A stretch of DNA of 64,000 nt, from positions 144,623-208,622 of the forward strand of contig JAABSA010000001.1 of NCBI GenBank assembly GCA_011390635.1, written 5' to 3'. Made by a program: the position numbers and the translations under genes. The notes beneath the pieces are model-generated. The model had not been told where the DNA came from and did no database searches. It worked only from the letters and a program-made list of their open reading frames with translations. Of the stretch, positions 55,174 to 61,970 are shown one piece after another (within the stretch, counting starts at the first letter, position 1; every line of letters starts with the position of its first letter). The stretch comes from Desulfotignum sp. GTDB lineage: Bacteria > Desulfobacterota > Desulfobacteria > Desulfobacterales > Desulfobacteraceae.

Positions 55174-57968
55174 AGAATTTTTTGCAGGGCAGCAGTACAC
55201 CGGTCACAGGCAGTGGGGTGACTGCTGTCCTGTCCGATGACGTTGCTGAACCGCCAGCAACGCTCACATTTTTCACCGGTTGCTTTTTTCACTGCAATTT
55301 CAAGCCCCAGTATCTCTTTTCCCTGGAAAGCTCCAGGCTCCAGGCTGTCCACAAGCACTGCAGATGATACAATGAAAATGTCAGACAGCTCCTGATCAAG
55401 GGTTTGCAGCATATTTCTAAAAGTGGTGTCCGGCAGTTTGATTTCCAGGGCCGCATCAAGGGGGTGGCCGATGAGCTTGACTTTCCTTGCATCTTCAAGG
55501 GCTTTGGTCACTTCAGAACGCAGGGCCAGGATCTGCTGCCATTTTCCGGCCAGTTCAGGGTTCTGCCAGGCCGGGTCAGGCACTGCCATAGGTTCCATGT
55601 GGATGCTTTCTTTCCTGGCCCTTCCCTCAGGCATATGGGCATAGATTTCTTCTGCAGTAAAGGGCAGAATCGGCGCCATGATCTTGACAAGGGCATCCAG
55701 GATTAATGCCATGACCGTCTGGGCATCTTTTCTTTGTGGACTGGCAGGCGGGGAGGTATAAAGCCTGTCTTTGATGATATCCAGATAAAACGCAGACAGG
55801 TCAATCACACAAAAATTATGCAACGCATGGTAAATGGTATGAAATTCATAATTTTCATAGGCCTGGATCGATTTTTGTGTTACCTGATACAGCCGGTGCA
55901 GAATGAACCGGTCCATTTCACACATGCTTTCCAGGGGTCTGGCATCTGTTTTCAGGTCAAAATTGCTGAAATTGCCCAGCATGAACCTGCAGGTGTTGCG
56001 GATCCTGCGGTAGGCATCGGATAACTGCCTGATGATATTATCGGAGATGCTCACATCCCCCCGGTAATCGGCAGAGGCTGCCCACAACCGCAGGACATCA
56101 GCCCCATACTGTTTTATCACCTTTTCCGGTGCCACTACATTACCCACGGATTTGGACATTTTATGCCCTGCTTCATCCACCACAAACCCATGGGTCAAAA
56201 CAGCCTTGTAAGGGGCACTACCGGTGCGGCCCACCGCCGTAAGCAAAGAGGAATGAAACCATCCCCTGTGCTGGTCGGACCCTTCCAGGTACATGTCAGC
56301 CGGCCGCTGCAAACCTGGACGTTCGTTAAGAACAGCCGCATGGCTGACCCCGGAGTCAAACCATACATCCAGGATGTTACGGTCTTTTGTAAATGCCGTG
56401 CTGCCGCATTTTTCACACACGGCCTTGTCCGGCATCAGATAGGCTGCATCCTTGTCAAACCAGATATCGGAAGAATATTTTGAAAACAGGTCATGTATCT
56501 TGTCCACCGATGCGCGGGTCACATAGATTCCCTTGCATTCGCTGCAATGAAAAACCGGGATGGGAACTCCCCAGGAGCGCTGACGCGACAGGCACCAGTC
56601 CGGTCTGTTCTCGATCATGGAATAGATCCTTTCTTTTCCCCAGGAGGGTATCCATTTTACATGATTGATCTGCTCAAGGGTTTTTTCCCGCAGACCCAGC
56701 TTGTCCATGGAAATGAACCACTGGGGGGTGGCCCTAAAGATCACCGGGTTCTTGCACCGCCAGCAGTGGGGATAAGAATGGGATAAATTTTCATTTTTTA
56801 AGAGCGCTTTTTTTTCTTGCAGCACCGCATTGATATGTTTGTTGGCCTTGAAGATGAATTCTCCGGCAAACAATGCCACATCTTTTGAAAAAACACCGGT
56901 GTCCTCCACCGGGGAATAGCAGTCCAGGTTATATTTTTTGCCCACCGCATGGTCATCAGCCCCGTGACCGGGGGCGGTATGCACACATCCTGTCCCTGCT
57001 TCCAGGGTGACATGGTCTCCCAGGATGATCACAGAATCCCGGTCATAAATGGGATGGCTGCATTTTTTATTTTCCAGATCCAGGGGATTGAGCTCTGCAG
57101 CAATGGTATAATTTTCAATGCCAAGGGTCTTCATGACCGTTTTCACAAGTTCTTTGGCCAGAATCAGTACCCCGTGGGAATCGGTTTTCACTGCAGCATA
57201 AACAAACTGCGGGTGCAGGCACACTCCAAGGTTGGCTGGAATGGTCCAGGGGGTGGTGGTCCATATCACCATGGAAACCGCATCGTCAGCGATATCGGGG
57301 ATCAGGGAAGAAAGGTCATCCTTGAGGGGGAATGCCACATATATGGATGGCGAGGTATGGTCATGGTATTCGATTTCCGCTTCTGCCAGTGCGGTCTGGC
57401 AGGAACAGCACCAGTGGATGGGTTTTTTACCCAGAAACATATCTCCTGCCAGGGCAAATTCCCCGCATTCTCTGGCAATGGTGGCTTCGTAAGCATAGTT
57501 CATGGTCAGATACGGATCATTCCACTGGCCTGTCACACCAAACCGCTTGAATTCATCCCGCTGGATATCCACGAATCTGGCGGCATAGTCCCGGCATTCT
57601 TGGCGGATCTGCACCGGGGTCATCTCCTTTTTTTTAGCGCCCAGTTTTTTGTCCACATTGTGTTCAATGGGCAGGCCATGGCAGTCCCATCCCGGGACAT
57701 AGGGGGCGTTAAAACCGCCCATCTGCCTTGATCTGACAATAATATCCTTTAAAATCTTGTTGATGGCATGGCCCATGTGAAGATGGCCGTTGGCATAGGG
57801 AGGACCGTCATGGAGAATAAAAACCGGGTGGTCTTTGGATTGTTCCCGCAGTTTTTCATATATTTTTTTTTCATCCCACAGTGTAAGCTGTTCAGGCTCC
57901 CGCTGGGGCAGATTGGCCTTCATGGCAAACTGTGTTGAAGGCAGGTTCAGTGTTTTTTTATAATCCAT
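55170..57968 (-). CDS. ileS: Isoleucyl-tRNA synthetase
   Basis: IleS charges tRNA(Ile), with editing of mischarged valine. The 932-residue length is normal for the bacterial type. Class I motifs are GHLHMGH (HIGH-like) and HKMSKSVGN (KMSKS). The CP1 editing domain lies between them, with [11 protein letters not shown]. The C-terminal zinc site is in CERCWRF and CDRC. GGAGGACG precedes the ATG. It leads the operon ileS-lspA-lgt-holA-pyk. No T-box fold was seen upstream. Confidence 0.97.
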
Positions 57969-58034
57969 TCGTCCTCCGAATCAGGATACATATTGATGTC
58001 ACGCCATAAAAATTTTTTAAGTATTAAACTTGTC

Positions 58035-58063
58035 TTTTTAGTGCCAAACGGGTGAAAAGTCAA
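58035..58063 (-). promoter_or_regulatory. Candidate ileS promoter
   Basis: On the minus strand TTGACT (58063-58058) and TAAAAA (58040-58035) are 17 bases apart, about 65 bases before the ileS ATG. Confidence 0.5.
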
Positions 58064-58110
58064 GCTCCAGCCCCATTTATCTGGATATTTACCATAAGTA
58101 TCCCAGGTTA

Positions 58111-58162
58111 TCGACCTTTCGCTGCAGTACTCGATCCCCGGACCCGCCCCTGGTGGTGTCCT
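58111..58162. repeat. Dispersed GC-rich repeat, copy A (upstream of the cold-shock gene)
   Basis: This 52-base segment, read in reverse complement, matches 59623-59674 at 43 of 52 positions without gaps, including blocks such as GGGGCGGGTCCGG and GTACTGCAGCGAA. It lies between the divergent ileS and cold-shock genes. It is a single arm; the long palindrome of copy B is not present here. Confidence 0.75.
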
Positions 58163-58212
58163 CATAGAGTGTACCCTAGTTATAGCAAATTTTTAATTTT
58201 GCATAACAGTGC

Positions 58213-58240
58213 TTGACATTTGCAAACTAAAAGATATAAT
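58213..58240 (+). promoter_or_regulatory. Strong promoter for the cold-shock gene
   Basis: TTGACA (58213-58218) and TATAAT (58235-58240) are both perfect consensus, 16 bases apart. The element TTATAGCAAAT at 58180-58190 lies 22 bases upstream of the -35. Transcription would start near 58247. Confidence 0.75.
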
Positions 58241-58246
58241 TTGTCT

Positions 58247-58367
58247 ATCGCGCTTGGAGAAAGGCGCGCAATTATTTCCGCCGTAAGGTGTATATCCAGA
58301 TTTTTAATGTGGTTTACCCCCAAAGCAAGAAGATTTTTTTTATTTTTTATTACAGGAGAGTGCCGAC
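58247..58367 (+). promoter_or_regulatory. Long 5' leader of the cold-shock mRNA
   Basis: The predicted leader is about 120 bases, typical of cold-shock mRNAs that change fold with temperature. A CGCGC/GCGCG hairpin (58249-58253 with 58264-58268) stands at its 5' end, and a T-rich stretch precedes the ribosome binding site CAGGAG. Confidence 0.45.
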
Positions 58368-58571
58368 ATGGCAAATGGTATTGTAAAATGGTTTAACGAC
58401 TCAAAAGGTTTTGGATTCATCGAAGTAGAAGACGGTGGAAAAGATGTGTTTGTGCATCACTCAGGTATTAATTCAAGCGGTTTTAAATCCCTCAATGAAG
58501 GGGACCGGGTTTCATTCGATATTGAAGAAGGTCAAAAAGGACCTTCTGCTAAAAATGTAACCGTACTTTAA
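58368..58571 (+). CDS. Cold-shock domain protein (CspA family)
   Basis: The 67-residue protein is a single cold-shock domain, a five-stranded OB fold that binds single-stranded RNA or DNA and melts RNA structure. It opens with the standard [15 protein letters not shown] (containing RNP1) and has RNP2 in DVFVHHSGI, followed by [27 protein letters not shown] lies 9 bases before the ATG. A consensus promoter, a long leader and a strong terminator make this a self-contained, probably highly expressed unit. Confidence 0.96.
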
Positions 58572-58607
58572 AACAGTATCGTTACCGTCAAAACACAGTA
58601 AAGACCT

Positions 58608-58650
58608 AAAAAAAAGTTCCTGTATCCCAATGATTCAGGAACTTTTTTTT
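58608..58650. terminator. Bidirectional Rho-independent terminator (cold-shock gene and rsmG)
   Basis: A GTTCCTG/CAGGAAC stem is extended by A8 on the left and T8 on the right, with a 13-base loop. It serves the cold-shock gene on the plus strand. It also overlaps the last codons of rsmG, so it can stop minus-strand transcripts too. Confidence 0.9.
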
Positions 58651-59354
58651 ATTGGGTTCAGTCTTACCAGGCATCGGTGCGCCCCTTCAAAAGGAAGGGT
58701 ATAGTAATCACATTGTATGGTAAATTGCTTTTTCAGGTCAAAAGAGATCTCCGCTGCTGCTTTGGTACCTTTCAAGGCATAGATGGTGCCGTCTGGTTGC
58801 AGCAGGGGGCCTGCCAGACCGGCAAGTATGTCGAGAGCGGCAAAGCCCCTGGCCATAACAGCATCGAAACGAGCGCAAAAATCCGGGTTCTGGTGAAAAT
58901 TTTCCAACCGGGTATGGATGACATCAATTCCCCCTATTCCCAACGTCCGGATGACATGTTTGAGAAAATGTACTTTTTTTCTGGATGCATCCACCAGCAG
59001 CATCTGCATATCCGGGTTAAGCAGTTTCAGGGGGAGTCCTGGAAAACCGCCGCCAGATCCCATATCAAGCACTGTTTTTTTCTGATGCACAAACGGCTGG
59101 ATTGCAATGGCATCAAGAAAATGCTTTTGGGCCATGGCCACAGGATCTGTGATGGCTGTGAGATTGATTTTTTTGTTCCATTTTTCCAGTTGTTCAGCAT
59201 GGCAGGCCATCTGGTTCTTCTGGTCCCGGGTAAGAGGTATCCCCATCTGTTTACTTCCCTGGCAAAGGGTTTGACAGAATATTTCATGATCCTGATGTTT
59301 CAATAGATTGCTTTTTTTTACGTAAAAAGATTTATATTCAGTTATGGATCTCAT
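58635..59354 (-). CDS. rsmG: 16S rRNA (guanine527-N7)-methyltransferase RsmG
   Basis: RsmG (GidB) makes m7G527 in 16S rRNA using SAM. The 239-residue protein has KWNKKINLTAI at the start of the catalytic domain, the SAM motif VLDMGSGGGFPGLPL, LLVDASRKKVHFL, and the conserved VMARGFAAL. The first 30 or so residues are not conserved and the ATG at 59354 has no clear ribosome binding site, so the true start may be somewhat later. It is not next to mnmG or parA, where rsmG often sits. Confidence 0.92.
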   Translation of the reverse strand: MRSITEYKSFYVKKSNLLKHQDHEIFCQTLCQGSKQMGIPLTRDQKNQMACHAEQLEKWNKKINLTAITDPVAMAQKHFLDAIAIQPFVHQKKTVLDMGSGGGFPGLPLKLLNPDMQMLLVDASRKKVHFLKHVIRTLGIGGIDVIHTRLENFHQNPDFCARFDAVMARGFAALDILAGLAGPLLQPDGTIYALKGTKAAAEISFDLKKQFTIQCDYYTLPFEGAHRCLVRLNPIKKSS

Positions 59355-59435
59355 TTGTCGAATTGAAAATTTATTAAATCTCGGTCCTGATTACAAGAAA
59401 ATTTTATGGAAAATTTTCAAATGTACACAAAATAT

Positions 59436-59674
59436 CTGCTGTACCCGGATTGTGCACCAGGAGGACCCTGGCGCAAGCCCCCGGCGGTGTGCTGTGACTT
59501 TACCGTCAGAGCCGGAGGGAGCCTGGTTGGATATGCTGGAATGTCACATTTTCACCCGAAGCGGGTTGCTGTAAGTCATTCTTCTCATGGAAACAGGCCA
59601 AGCAGGATCTCGGGCCGGGCGCAGCACACCGCCGGGGGCGGGTCCGGAGACAGGGTACTGCAGCGAACAGTCGA
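59436..59674. repeat. Dispersed GC-rich repeat, copy B: inverted-repeat element upstream of fusA
   Basis: An 18-bp perfect inverted repeat (59477-59494 with 59622-59639, core CCCCCGGCGGTGTGCTG) is flanked by a second pairing of 59436-59446 with 59653-59663 (10 of 11). Inside are a TGTGAC/GTCACA stem and a perfect ACCCG-AAG-CGGGT hairpin. The right arm matches copy A. No open reading frame of note lies within. It occupies much of the 537-base gap between rsmG and fusA. Confidence 0.75.
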
Positions 59675-59713
59675 AAACCCTTCAGGCTTATAGCAAATGG
59701 CTGCAATAAACCA

Positions 59714-59742
59714 TTGACAAAACTAAACAAATAAGATATAGA
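59714..59742 (+). promoter_or_regulatory. Promoter for fusA
   Basis: TTGACA (59714-59719) and TATAGA (59737-59742) are 17 bases apart. TTATAGCAAAT (59688-59698) lies 15 bases upstream of the -35, as in the cold-shock promoter. The predicted leader is about 140 bases and holds a CCTTTGG/CCAAAGG stem. Confidence 0.6.
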
Positions 59743-59891
59743 ACCGTCTTTCATATGCTGAATTTTACCTAAGATTCATTTTTGATAAAATCGTAACAAT
59801 TATTTAACAGAATTCAGGACATGGCAAACCCTTTGGCAAAAATTGCGTTCTTTTTTCCAAAGGCAAATTTTATTCATAAGGATGATGTAAC

Positions 59892-61970
59892 ATGATCAGA
59901 GACTTAAAGCGGGTAAGAAATATCGGCATCAGTGCCCATATTGATTCCGGCAAAACAACGCTTACAGAAAGGGTTTTGTTTTACACGGACAGGATTCACA
60001 AAATCAATGAGGTCAGGGGAAAAGATGGTACCGGTGCGGTCATGGACTCCATGGACCTTGAAAGAGAGCGGGGAATAACGATCGCCTCTGCCGCCACCTA
60101 TTGTGAGTGGAAAAAACACAATATCAATATTATCGACACCCCCGGGCATGTGGATTTTACTGTGGAAGTGGAACGATCCCTTCGGGTACTTGACGGCGTG
60201 GTATTGATCCTGTGTTCCGTATCCGGGGTTCAGTCCCAGTCGATCACCGTGGACCAGCAGATGAAACGGTATGAGGTCCCCTGCATTGCATTTGTCAACA
60301 AATGTGACCGGTCCGGTGCAAATCCCGCCAAAGTCACCCGGCAGCTCAAGGACAAACTGGGGCACAATTCTGTTTTAATGCAGCTGCCCATCGGGCTGGA
60401 AGACAAACATAAAGGGGTGATAGACCTGGTGGCCATGAAAGCCTATTATTTTGAAGGAGATCATGGTGAAAAAGTAGCAGTCAAAGAGATTCCTGAAAAC
60501 ATGGTCGAGGAGGCCCGTGCTGCCAGGGAAGAAATGATTGATGCCGCCTCTCTTTTTTCAGAAGAACTTACCGATGCCATTCTCGAAGAAGCCGATATCA
60601 CAGATGATATGATTAAAACAGCTGTCAGAACAGGTGTTATCGCCCGGCAGATCACTCCGGTGTTTTTGGGATCTGCTTATAAAAACAAGGCGGTCCAGCC
60701 TTTACTGGATGCTGTGATTGATTACCTGCCCTCCCCCCTGGATATTAACAATGAAGCCATTGATCTGGACAACAATGAAGAAAGTGTTGTTCTGGAAAGC
60801 AGTTTTGACAAACCGACGGTGGCCCTGGCGTTTAAACTGGAAGATGGGCAATACGGACAGCTTACCTATCTGCGGGTCTACCAGGGCTGTATTGCCAAAG
60901 GTGATACCCTGGTCAACTCCCGGGATGGGAAAAAAGTCAAAGCAGGAAGGCTCATCCGGATGCATGCCTCCCAGATGGAAGAAGTGGAGGAAATCCCGGC
61001 GGGCCATATCGGTGCAATGTTCGGCATTGATTGTGCTTCAGGAGATACATTTGTGTCTCCCAGTATTAATTATTCCATGCTGGCCATGCACGTAATGGAG
61101 CCGGTTATTTCTCTTTCCATCGTACCCAAGGACAACAAGGCCCAGATCAATATGTCCAAAGCATTAAACCGGTTTACCAAAGAAGATCCCACGTTTAAAA
61201 CCTATGTGGACCATGAAACAGGAGACACCATCATCCAGGGAATGGGTGAGCTTCACCTGGAGGTCTATGTGGAGCGTATGAAGCGTGAATACCAGGCAGA
61301 GGTCACCACAGGAAAGCCCAGGGTCGCCTACAGAGAAACCATTACACAGAAAGCGGTTTTCAATTACACCCACAAAAAACAAACCGGCGGTGCCGGTCAG
61401 TTCGGCCGTGTGGCCGGTTTTGTTGAGCCGTGTGATGAGGATTTTGAATTTGTCAACAAGATCACCGGCGGCCGGATTCCCACCCAGTATATCCCGGCCT
61501 GTGAAAAAGGATTTTTGGCCTGCATGCACAAAGGGCCCAAGCTGGAGTTTCCGGTCACAGGCATCAGGGTGACCATTGATGACGGGGCCTACCATGCAGT
61601 GGATTCATCGGAAATGGCATTTCAGGCTGCAGCCAGGGGCGCTTTTCTGGAAGCCTATGGTAAAGCAAAACCAGTCATCAAGGAACCCATCATGAAAGTG
61701 GTTATTGAAACCCCGAATGAATTTCAGGGGTCATGTATGGGGTTGATCAACCAGAGACGGGGAATCATCCAGGGCTCCCAGGAAGAAGGGGTCATGTCTG
61801 TCATTGAAAGCCAGGTGCCGTTGTCTGAAATGTTCGGGTTTTCCACAATTTTGCGATCCGCCACCCAGGGAAAGGCACAGTTTACCATGGAATTTTCTTC
61901 CTACAAACAGGTTCCCCAGTCCATTGCCGAAGAGATCATCAAACAAAAACAAGAAGAAAAAAAAGCCTAA
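59892..61970 (+). CDS. fusA: Elongation factor G (spd/mitochondrial EF-G1-like)
   Basis: EF-G drives ribosomal translocation using GTP. The 692-residue protein has the P-loop AHIDSGKTT, switch [10 protein letters not shown] with the catalytic histidine, NKCD for guanine specificity, and domains II to V including [11 protein letters not shown] and [15 protein letters not shown]. The segments [22 protein letters not shown] and AHIDSGKTT resemble mitochondrial EF-G1 and the spd class reported from spirochaetes, planctomycetes and deltaproteobacteria, more than the str-operon EF-G. Consistent with that, no rps or tuf genes adjoin it. AAGGATGAT precedes the ATG. Confidence 0.95.

Follow-up and report, generated by a model that had tools for sequence, protein, structure and literature searches.

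Results

Upstream regions of csp and fusA

The window analysed here is a stretch of 64,000 nucleotides within contig C17 of the Desulfotignum sp. genome G000 (4.09 Mb in 98 contigs). It contains a cold-shock protein gene (csp) and the elongation factor gene fusA, each preceded by a copy of the same MITE. The features of both upstream regions are listed below; here and throughout, promoters are consensus matches of the sigma70 type.

58035..58063, minus strand: ileS promoter (consensus match), -35 TTGACT at 58058-58063, weak -10 TAAAAA at about 58035-58040 (position read off the sequence)
58081..58196, plus strand: MITE copy with an internal deletion, located between ileS and csp, with end motifs on both sides
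58081..58098, minus strand: terminal inverted repeat toward the ileS promoter, CTTATGGTAAATATCCAG read outward
58179..58196, plus strand: terminal inverted repeat toward the csp promoter, containing an 11-mer at 58180-58190
58213..58240, plus strand: csp promoter (consensus match), -35 TTGACA at 58213-58218, -10 TATAAT at 58235-58240, spacer 16 nt
58368..58571, plus strand: cold-shock protein gene, 67 aa, PF00313
59428..59704, minus strand: MITE copy between rsmG and fusA in opposite orientation, genome match C17:204098-204320 on the minus strand
59477..59639, minus strand: hairpin core of the fusA copy, whose 18-nt arms (59477-59494 and 59622-59639) can pair at every position
59687..59704, plus strand: eroded terminal repeat toward fusA, CTTATAGCAAATGGCTGC, containing the 11-mer at 59688-59698
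59714..59742, plus strand: fusA promoter (consensus match), -35 TTGACA at 59714-59719, -10 TATAGA at 59737-59742
59892..61970, plus strand: fusA, elongation factor G, PF00009 and PF03764

An earlier note on this DNA had described a shared module of three elements in front of csp and fusA, and all three are present. A 52-base repeat at 58111-58162 matches the reverse complement of 59623-59674 in 43 of 52 positions, the 11-mer TTATAGCAAAT lies the same way round at both loci, and the two TTGACA boxes are accompanied by GATATA within both -10 regions (58233-58238 and 59735-59740). No other occurrence of the 11-mer with up to one mismatch was found in the window, where base composition predicts approximately 0.04 exact matches. 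The elements are not independent, however, as repeat and 11-mer are parts of one mobile element. The repeat search of the window revealed an inverted match longer than 52 bases, extending over 76 nt (76%; 58087-58162 with 59623-59698). It covers the 11-mer on the fusA side, whose counterpart lies at 58087-58097, in the left end of the csp copy. Because the 11-mer resides in a terminal repeat that faces outward at both ends, it reads the same way beside repeats of opposite orientation. The csp copy presents its right end to the downstream gene and the inverted fusA copy its left end.

What is left of the csp copy comprises its two terminal repeats, the left arm and, of the core stem, the 5′ half; the end motif has one mismatch at 58081-58098 and four at 58179-58196. 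It sits between two promoters: the csp -35 box starts 16 nt past one end and the ileS -35 box is 17 nt from the other. In the fusA copy, the far end is degenerate (59428-59445, by eye) and the fusA-near end is eroded. The distance from the 11-mer to the -35 box is 15 nt here, where an intact end would give about 21-23 nt; as a few bases have been lost beside the promoter, this end was left out of the spacing counts. A target duplication was not readable in either window copy. Within the window, the csp leader and gene (58247-58646) weakly resemble the Rfam cspA thermoregulator, at 42.7 bits against a cut-off of 78. A cold-responsive 5′ UTR of csp is plausible, and the leader looks well conserved among congeners.

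The MITE family

The csp and fusA repeats are two old copies of one MITE family. Its members carry 18-bp terminal inverted repeats (left CTGGATATTTGCCATAAG, right A/CTTATAGCAAATATTCAG), so that an element reads CTGGATATTTGCCATAAG...CTTATGGCAAATATCCAG. With up to two mismatches, the end motif has 60 matches in G000 compared with none for a reversed control. In genome-wide searches, an 81-bp repeat query returned 43 matches at E ≤ 10 in G000, a full element copy returned 75 pieces at E ≤ 1, and the 11-mer occurs 14 times against once for the reversed pattern.

From G000, its congeners and G016, a representative of another genus, we assembled 68 non-redundant two-ended copies. They are 45-389 bp long without a transposase gene; 45 of the 68 measure 261-282 bp and the shortest 45-48 bp. 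Perfect target duplications of 7-9 bp flank 30 of the 68, namely 14 of 8 bp, 9 of 7 bp and 7 of 9 bp. Seven of the 31 genomes searched have 16-57 end matches each, the other 24 have 0-4. Over public genome contigs, a 20-base core pattern retrieved 39 stretches, all from Desulfotignum sp. or Desulfobacteraceae bacterium MAG35 MAGs. Plasmids yielded no match to the element, and viral contigs yielded 12 core-motif and 18 end-motif matches; wherever ends were paired there, one of the two had 4-5 mismatches.

The interior forms a long core stem with paired changes in 78 of 80 cores found (two overlong cores excluded). Both sides have changed in 17 of 34 pairs, 94.1% of cells are paired and none of 500 shuffles scored as high. 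The core also has conserved internal positions and persists in copies without recognisable ends. A structured RNA was considered and set aside: Rfam 15 gave no match at gathering score in six loci, five of them with full-core copies, and none of 21 weak Rfam matches in 57900-59950 attained its own gathering score. Moreover, paired changes are no proof of an RNA role because template switching can keep the arms of a DNA palindrome matched.

Several individual copies deserve mention. A 48-bp palindrome in G000 (L094:633-680, contig C39) is flanked by a perfect 8-bp duplication and contains hardly anything besides two abutting end repeats; it appears to be close to the smallest mobile form. A 1,098-bp element in G016 (L300:584-1681, contig C73) has the terminal repeats of the family, matching 8-bp flanks ATAAATAA (by eye) and a hemerythrin-domain gene, and represents a passenger-gene version of the family. 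At one site shared by two species (L187 of G003 and L238 of G006), the element differs at 1 of 264 bases and the flanks at 38 of 281, which suggests recent parallel insertion or gene conversion. Different core copies with an identical downstream flank at L111 (C20:60286) and L118 (C52:22178) point tentatively to a repeated segment of larger size or to overlap within the assembly. In G005 (L206/L314, contig C54), a transposase-bearing element seems to lie within the left arm of a MITE copy as a nested insertion.

An insertion sequence with the same ends

Contig C73 of G000 harbors an intact frame for a 550-aa DDE transposase (PF01609, 60.4 bits; gathering score 23) with a perfect right end of the family about 265 bp downstream of the gene. 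On the left, the contig starts 139 bp before the gene and the sole left-end candidate has four mismatches. No good promoter lies 15-17 nt from the right end (6/12). Across seven genomes, a PF01609 search found 11 matches in six, with a good end nearby only at this locus, and IS256-type transposases were detected in none of the seven. Three other candidates for an autonomous partner were rejected: the 1,098-bp G016 element, whose hemerythrin gene is not accompanied by a transposase; the transposase beside an end in G005:C54, which looks like a different element inserted in a MITE arm; and a 2.7-kb end pair in G006:C17, where no ORF could be taken for a transposase by eye.

Matches to the transposase at E ≤ 1e-10 occur in six of 116 genomes including G000, two of them as fragments only. 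Twelve copies with near-equal scores, 79% identical to the G000 transposase and one of them with an internal stop, were found in G053, which belongs to a different genus of the family. The insertion sequence of G053 is 2,543-2,545 bp long, has the ends CTGGATATTTGCTATAAG...CTTATAGCAAATATCCAG and is flanked by perfect 7-9 bp duplications in nine of ten two-ended cases. When one two-ended insertion sequence each from G031 and G104 is added to these ten, 10 of 12 have a promoter (at least 8/12) at 15-17 nt on one side; the other two, L402 and L398, score 7 and 5. One G053 copy precedes fusA with an rsmG-like ORF on its other side, the same gene neighbourhood as that of the window copy, and the adjacent EF-G is 84% identical to the window EF-G over 315 aa. 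The promoter near this copy is weak (8/12), and a second TTGACA is 60 nt away. Another G053 copy precedes a hisI-like gene whose G000 counterpart (71% identical proteins) carries a MITE end. Beyond the ends, no likeness between the MITE interior and the insertion sequence was seen. Judged by these shared ends, the insertion sequence is the likely parent of the MITE, which is probably moved by the 550-aa PF01609 transposase.

Distant relatives of the transposase (31-38% identical) exist in nine other genomes of 395. An end pair with a duplication was found at one of 11 such loci (L404), with a perfect 9-bp duplication and a best promoter of 7/12 at 17 nt; L404 was excluded from the counts. The transposase scored below the cut-offs of all eight NCBIfam insertion sequence families matched at E ≤ 0.01, the best being IS4_1 with 33.2 bits against a cut-off of 115, too low for membership in IS4. 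A comparison with PDB sequences gave nothing at E ≤ 1.

Promoters in relatives without the element

The promoters of csp and fusA are older than the element and form no part of it. In 10 congeners that lack a recognisable element, all 11 loci have a csp promoter (TTGAC-A/T, spacer, TATAAT). The two remaining loci examined, in G000 and in its closest relative by identity, G007, carry the element; the G007 copy occupies the same place and is longer, having kept more of the middle. The fusA locus was compared in nine genomes. Five have the promoter without a recognisable element (G006, G003, G001, G009 and G012), three have it with an element copy or remnant (G000, G007 and G002), and in G005 the locus is broken by a contig edge. 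G007 shows an end remnant only, 15 nt from the -35 box, and G002 a partial copy at 17 nt. A role as promoter donor, as in Correia elements, was not borne out, since both promoters lie outside the element ends and exist without the element.

Fixed spacing between element ends and the -35 box

Scanning 229 non-redundant ends (up to three mismatches) for -35 boxes (at least 5/6) at offsets 0-69 revealed a sharp peak. Offsets 15, 16 and 17 account for 20, 40 and 9 ends, respectively, against 1.35 expected per position. Combined, this amounts to 69 of 229 ends compared with about 4 expected, a count that includes the data in which the spacing was first noticed. Each of the other offsets has 0-6 ends, and among the 229 ends a second peak one helical turn away is absent. 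When ends were aligned on the -35 box, a -10 box appeared after a 17-nt spacer. A combined -35/-10 score of at least 9/12, applied to 176 ends with up to two mismatches, gave 21, 35 and 8 ends at offsets 15-17 and 0-4 at each of the other 41 offsets. Of 66 ends with a weak -35 box (3-4/6), 18 have a -10 box (at least 4/6) at the 17-nt spacer compared with 1-8 at 15 other spacers. Hence, whole promoters rather than bare TTGAC motifs are enriched.

By the -35 box alone (at least 5/6 at offsets 14-18), 25 of 48 two-ended MITEs are positive on at least one side, against 3% per side in shuffles, and 23 of the 48 have no such box on either side. No promoter of at least 8/12 at 15-17 nt was found for 22 of 68 MITEs, including 6 of 30 with a perfect duplication. 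In a held-out test, for which the criterion was fixed before retrieval, a promoter lay at 15-17 nt in 11 of the 35 ends newly retrieved from G007 and G005; random windows gave a mean of 0.3 and never more than 2 in 5000 draws. In G016, 5 of 17 ends were positive (random 0.56, maximum 4), with flanks that had already been inspected earlier, so that G007 and G005 are the sole held-out part. In G000 itself, 36 ends (up to four mismatches) score at least 8/12 at 14-18 nt, at least one of which (L040, minus) looks spurious. Judged by their translations, the genes that follow these ends look like those for two cold-shock proteins, IleS, HtpG, HisI, IlvE and others.

The distance to the promoter follows the length of the target duplication. 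Among 41 elements with a perfect duplication (30 MITEs and 11 insertion sequences, drawn from the elements already counted above), 34 have a promoter of at least 8/12 at offsets 12-21. In 29 of these 34, the offset equals the duplication length plus exactly 8, compared with a permutation mean of 10.7 and a maximum of 21 (p 5e-5). Accordingly, 7-bp duplications go mostly with an offset of 15, 8-bp duplications with 16 and 9-bp duplications with 17. The rule is broken in five cases, two of which (L216 and L400) also have a promoter at the expected place. The constant 8 measures how far the inner cut lies from the -35 box in a target still free of the element and therefore points to promoter targeting rather than later selection. 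Reusing the same MITEs, we found a promoter of at least 8/12 at 15-17 nt in 24 of 30 with a perfect duplication and in 22 of the remaining 38 (Fisher p 0.07); control windows with both sides counted reached 6.5% and 11.6%. Copies with perfect duplications are linked to promoters no less than the others, so the linkage does not rise with age.

Discussion

A MITE family and an insertion sequence with the same ends, both inserting at a set position relative to promoters, very probably explain the two copies in the window, the targeting being deduced from the spacing. The transposition machinery would select its insertion site by reference to a promoter of the sigma70 type. The cut nearer the promoter would fall at about -44, 8 bp before the -35 hexamer, and the cut in the opposite strand 7-9 bp further out, placing the insert 15-17 nt before the -35 box and leaving promoter and gene intact at what would be a safe landing site. 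The machinery may be anchored by recognising the -35 box directly or by RNA polymerase that occupies it. It is somewhat more likely than not that the transposase docks on RNA polymerase-sigma70 at the promoter, or reads the -35 hexamer through one of its own domains, and so makes the inner cut 8 bp before that hexamer.

Among the explanations offered in the earlier note, a repeat family that inserts next to promoters fits best, as the -35 spacing is fixed and common to the MITE and the insertion sequence with the same ends. The note had also proposed that repeat, 11-mer and promoter form a duplicated cassette copied between csp and fusA. The order of the parts is indeed alike at both genes, but the promoters are found in congeners without a recognisable element, their spacers differ between csp and fusA, and opposite repeats with outward-facing ends are transposon-like, which makes this reading scarcely credible. 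Common regulation of growth- or cold-responsive genes, with TTATAGCAAAT as the binding site of a regulator, would suit the presence of the end motif before promoters of two cold-shock genes, ileS, htpG and other housekeeping genes, with an eroded one at fusA. However, the motif terminates a mobile element that is flanked by target duplications, it faces promoters of many unrelated genes in G000, and the csp and fusA promoters exist without it in congeners. We therefore regard it as very improbable that regulation caused the similarity. The note had reasoned that the module idea would fail if repeat and 11-mer occurred across the genome unlinked to promoters; we found the opposite, as the ends are promoter-linked.

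Two other readings were considered. Insertion might be random, with selection retaining those copies that end 15-17 nt before a -35 box because at this distance the terminal repeat serves as an insulator or an upstream activating element. Resident copies may in fact be constrained: in 15 pairs at shared loci, terminal repeats (0.05-0.07) and conserved internal stretches of the core (0.07-0.09) differ less than arms and central region (0.17-0.20) or flanks (0.14), although some pairs are of doubtful orthology and the comparison is confounded by apparent separate insertions or gene conversion, so that we do not rest conclusions on it. Selection should hold the distance between end and -35 box constant; instead, the distance tracks the duplication length. 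The strong linkage of copies with perfect duplications and the single spacing peak also speak against selection, and we consider it improbable. A transposase preferring a TTGAC motif at a set distance would account for the base-pair precision even if promoters were irrelevant, provided that survivors mark promoters because intergenic TTGAC is mostly promoter. By sequence alone, such a preference is inseparable from a -35-reading transposase. Yet ends with a poor -35 box still have the -10 box at the 17-nt spacer, and a TTGAC preference detached from promoters appears unlikely, if less so than selection. Promoter-relative targeting by the MITE family and its insertion sequence is thus our preferred explanation.

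Target preferences of bacterial insertion sequences are commonly regarded as loose. Among the literature matches listed, which lie mostly outside subscription journals, no title or opening of an abstract described a bacterial insertion sequence or MITE that keeps a fixed distance from a -35 box of its host. Known systems resemble the present one in parts. The eukaryotic retroelements Tf1, Ty1 and Ty3 integrate upstream of polymerase II or III promoters and likewise spare genes by inserting just upstream of transcription starts; they differ in element class and host machinery from the bacterial DDE transposase and sigma70-type promoters described here. Tn7, which targets one gene end (attTn7), and group IIC introns, which target terminators, are bacterial examples of safe-site targeting, whereas here the targets are promoters at many loci. 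With the IS4-like superfamily, the transposase shares the DDE_Tnp_1 domain (PF01609) and 7-9 bp duplications, but in the profile comparison it scores far below the cut-offs of the matched NCBIfam families. According to excerpts of one review, the bacterial MITEs Chunjie of Geobacter uraniireducens, Correia elements and MITEAba12 have in common with the present family that they are short, non-coding and intergenic, with terminal inverted repeats, target duplications and a stem-loop interior, and that they are thought to derive from insertion sequences (PMC10969869). The promoter effects of MITEs covered in these excerpts originate from promoters or IHF sites inside the element (PMC10969869). 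Here, in contrast, the promoter is that of the host and the element stands at a set distance from it.

For genomes such as these, a note of caution is that "conserved upstream modules" can be transposon ends. If promoter-relative targeting is true, a cut site indexed to the -35 box with base-pair precision would be a new route to harmless sites for a bacterial transposon, and it would link transposition to the transcription machinery. It might also be developed into a tool for marking active promoters or for inserting sequences just upstream of them. Should the transposase dock on RNA polymerase or read the -35 box itself, the insertions of the insertion sequence and its MITEs would constitute a natural record of occupied promoters.
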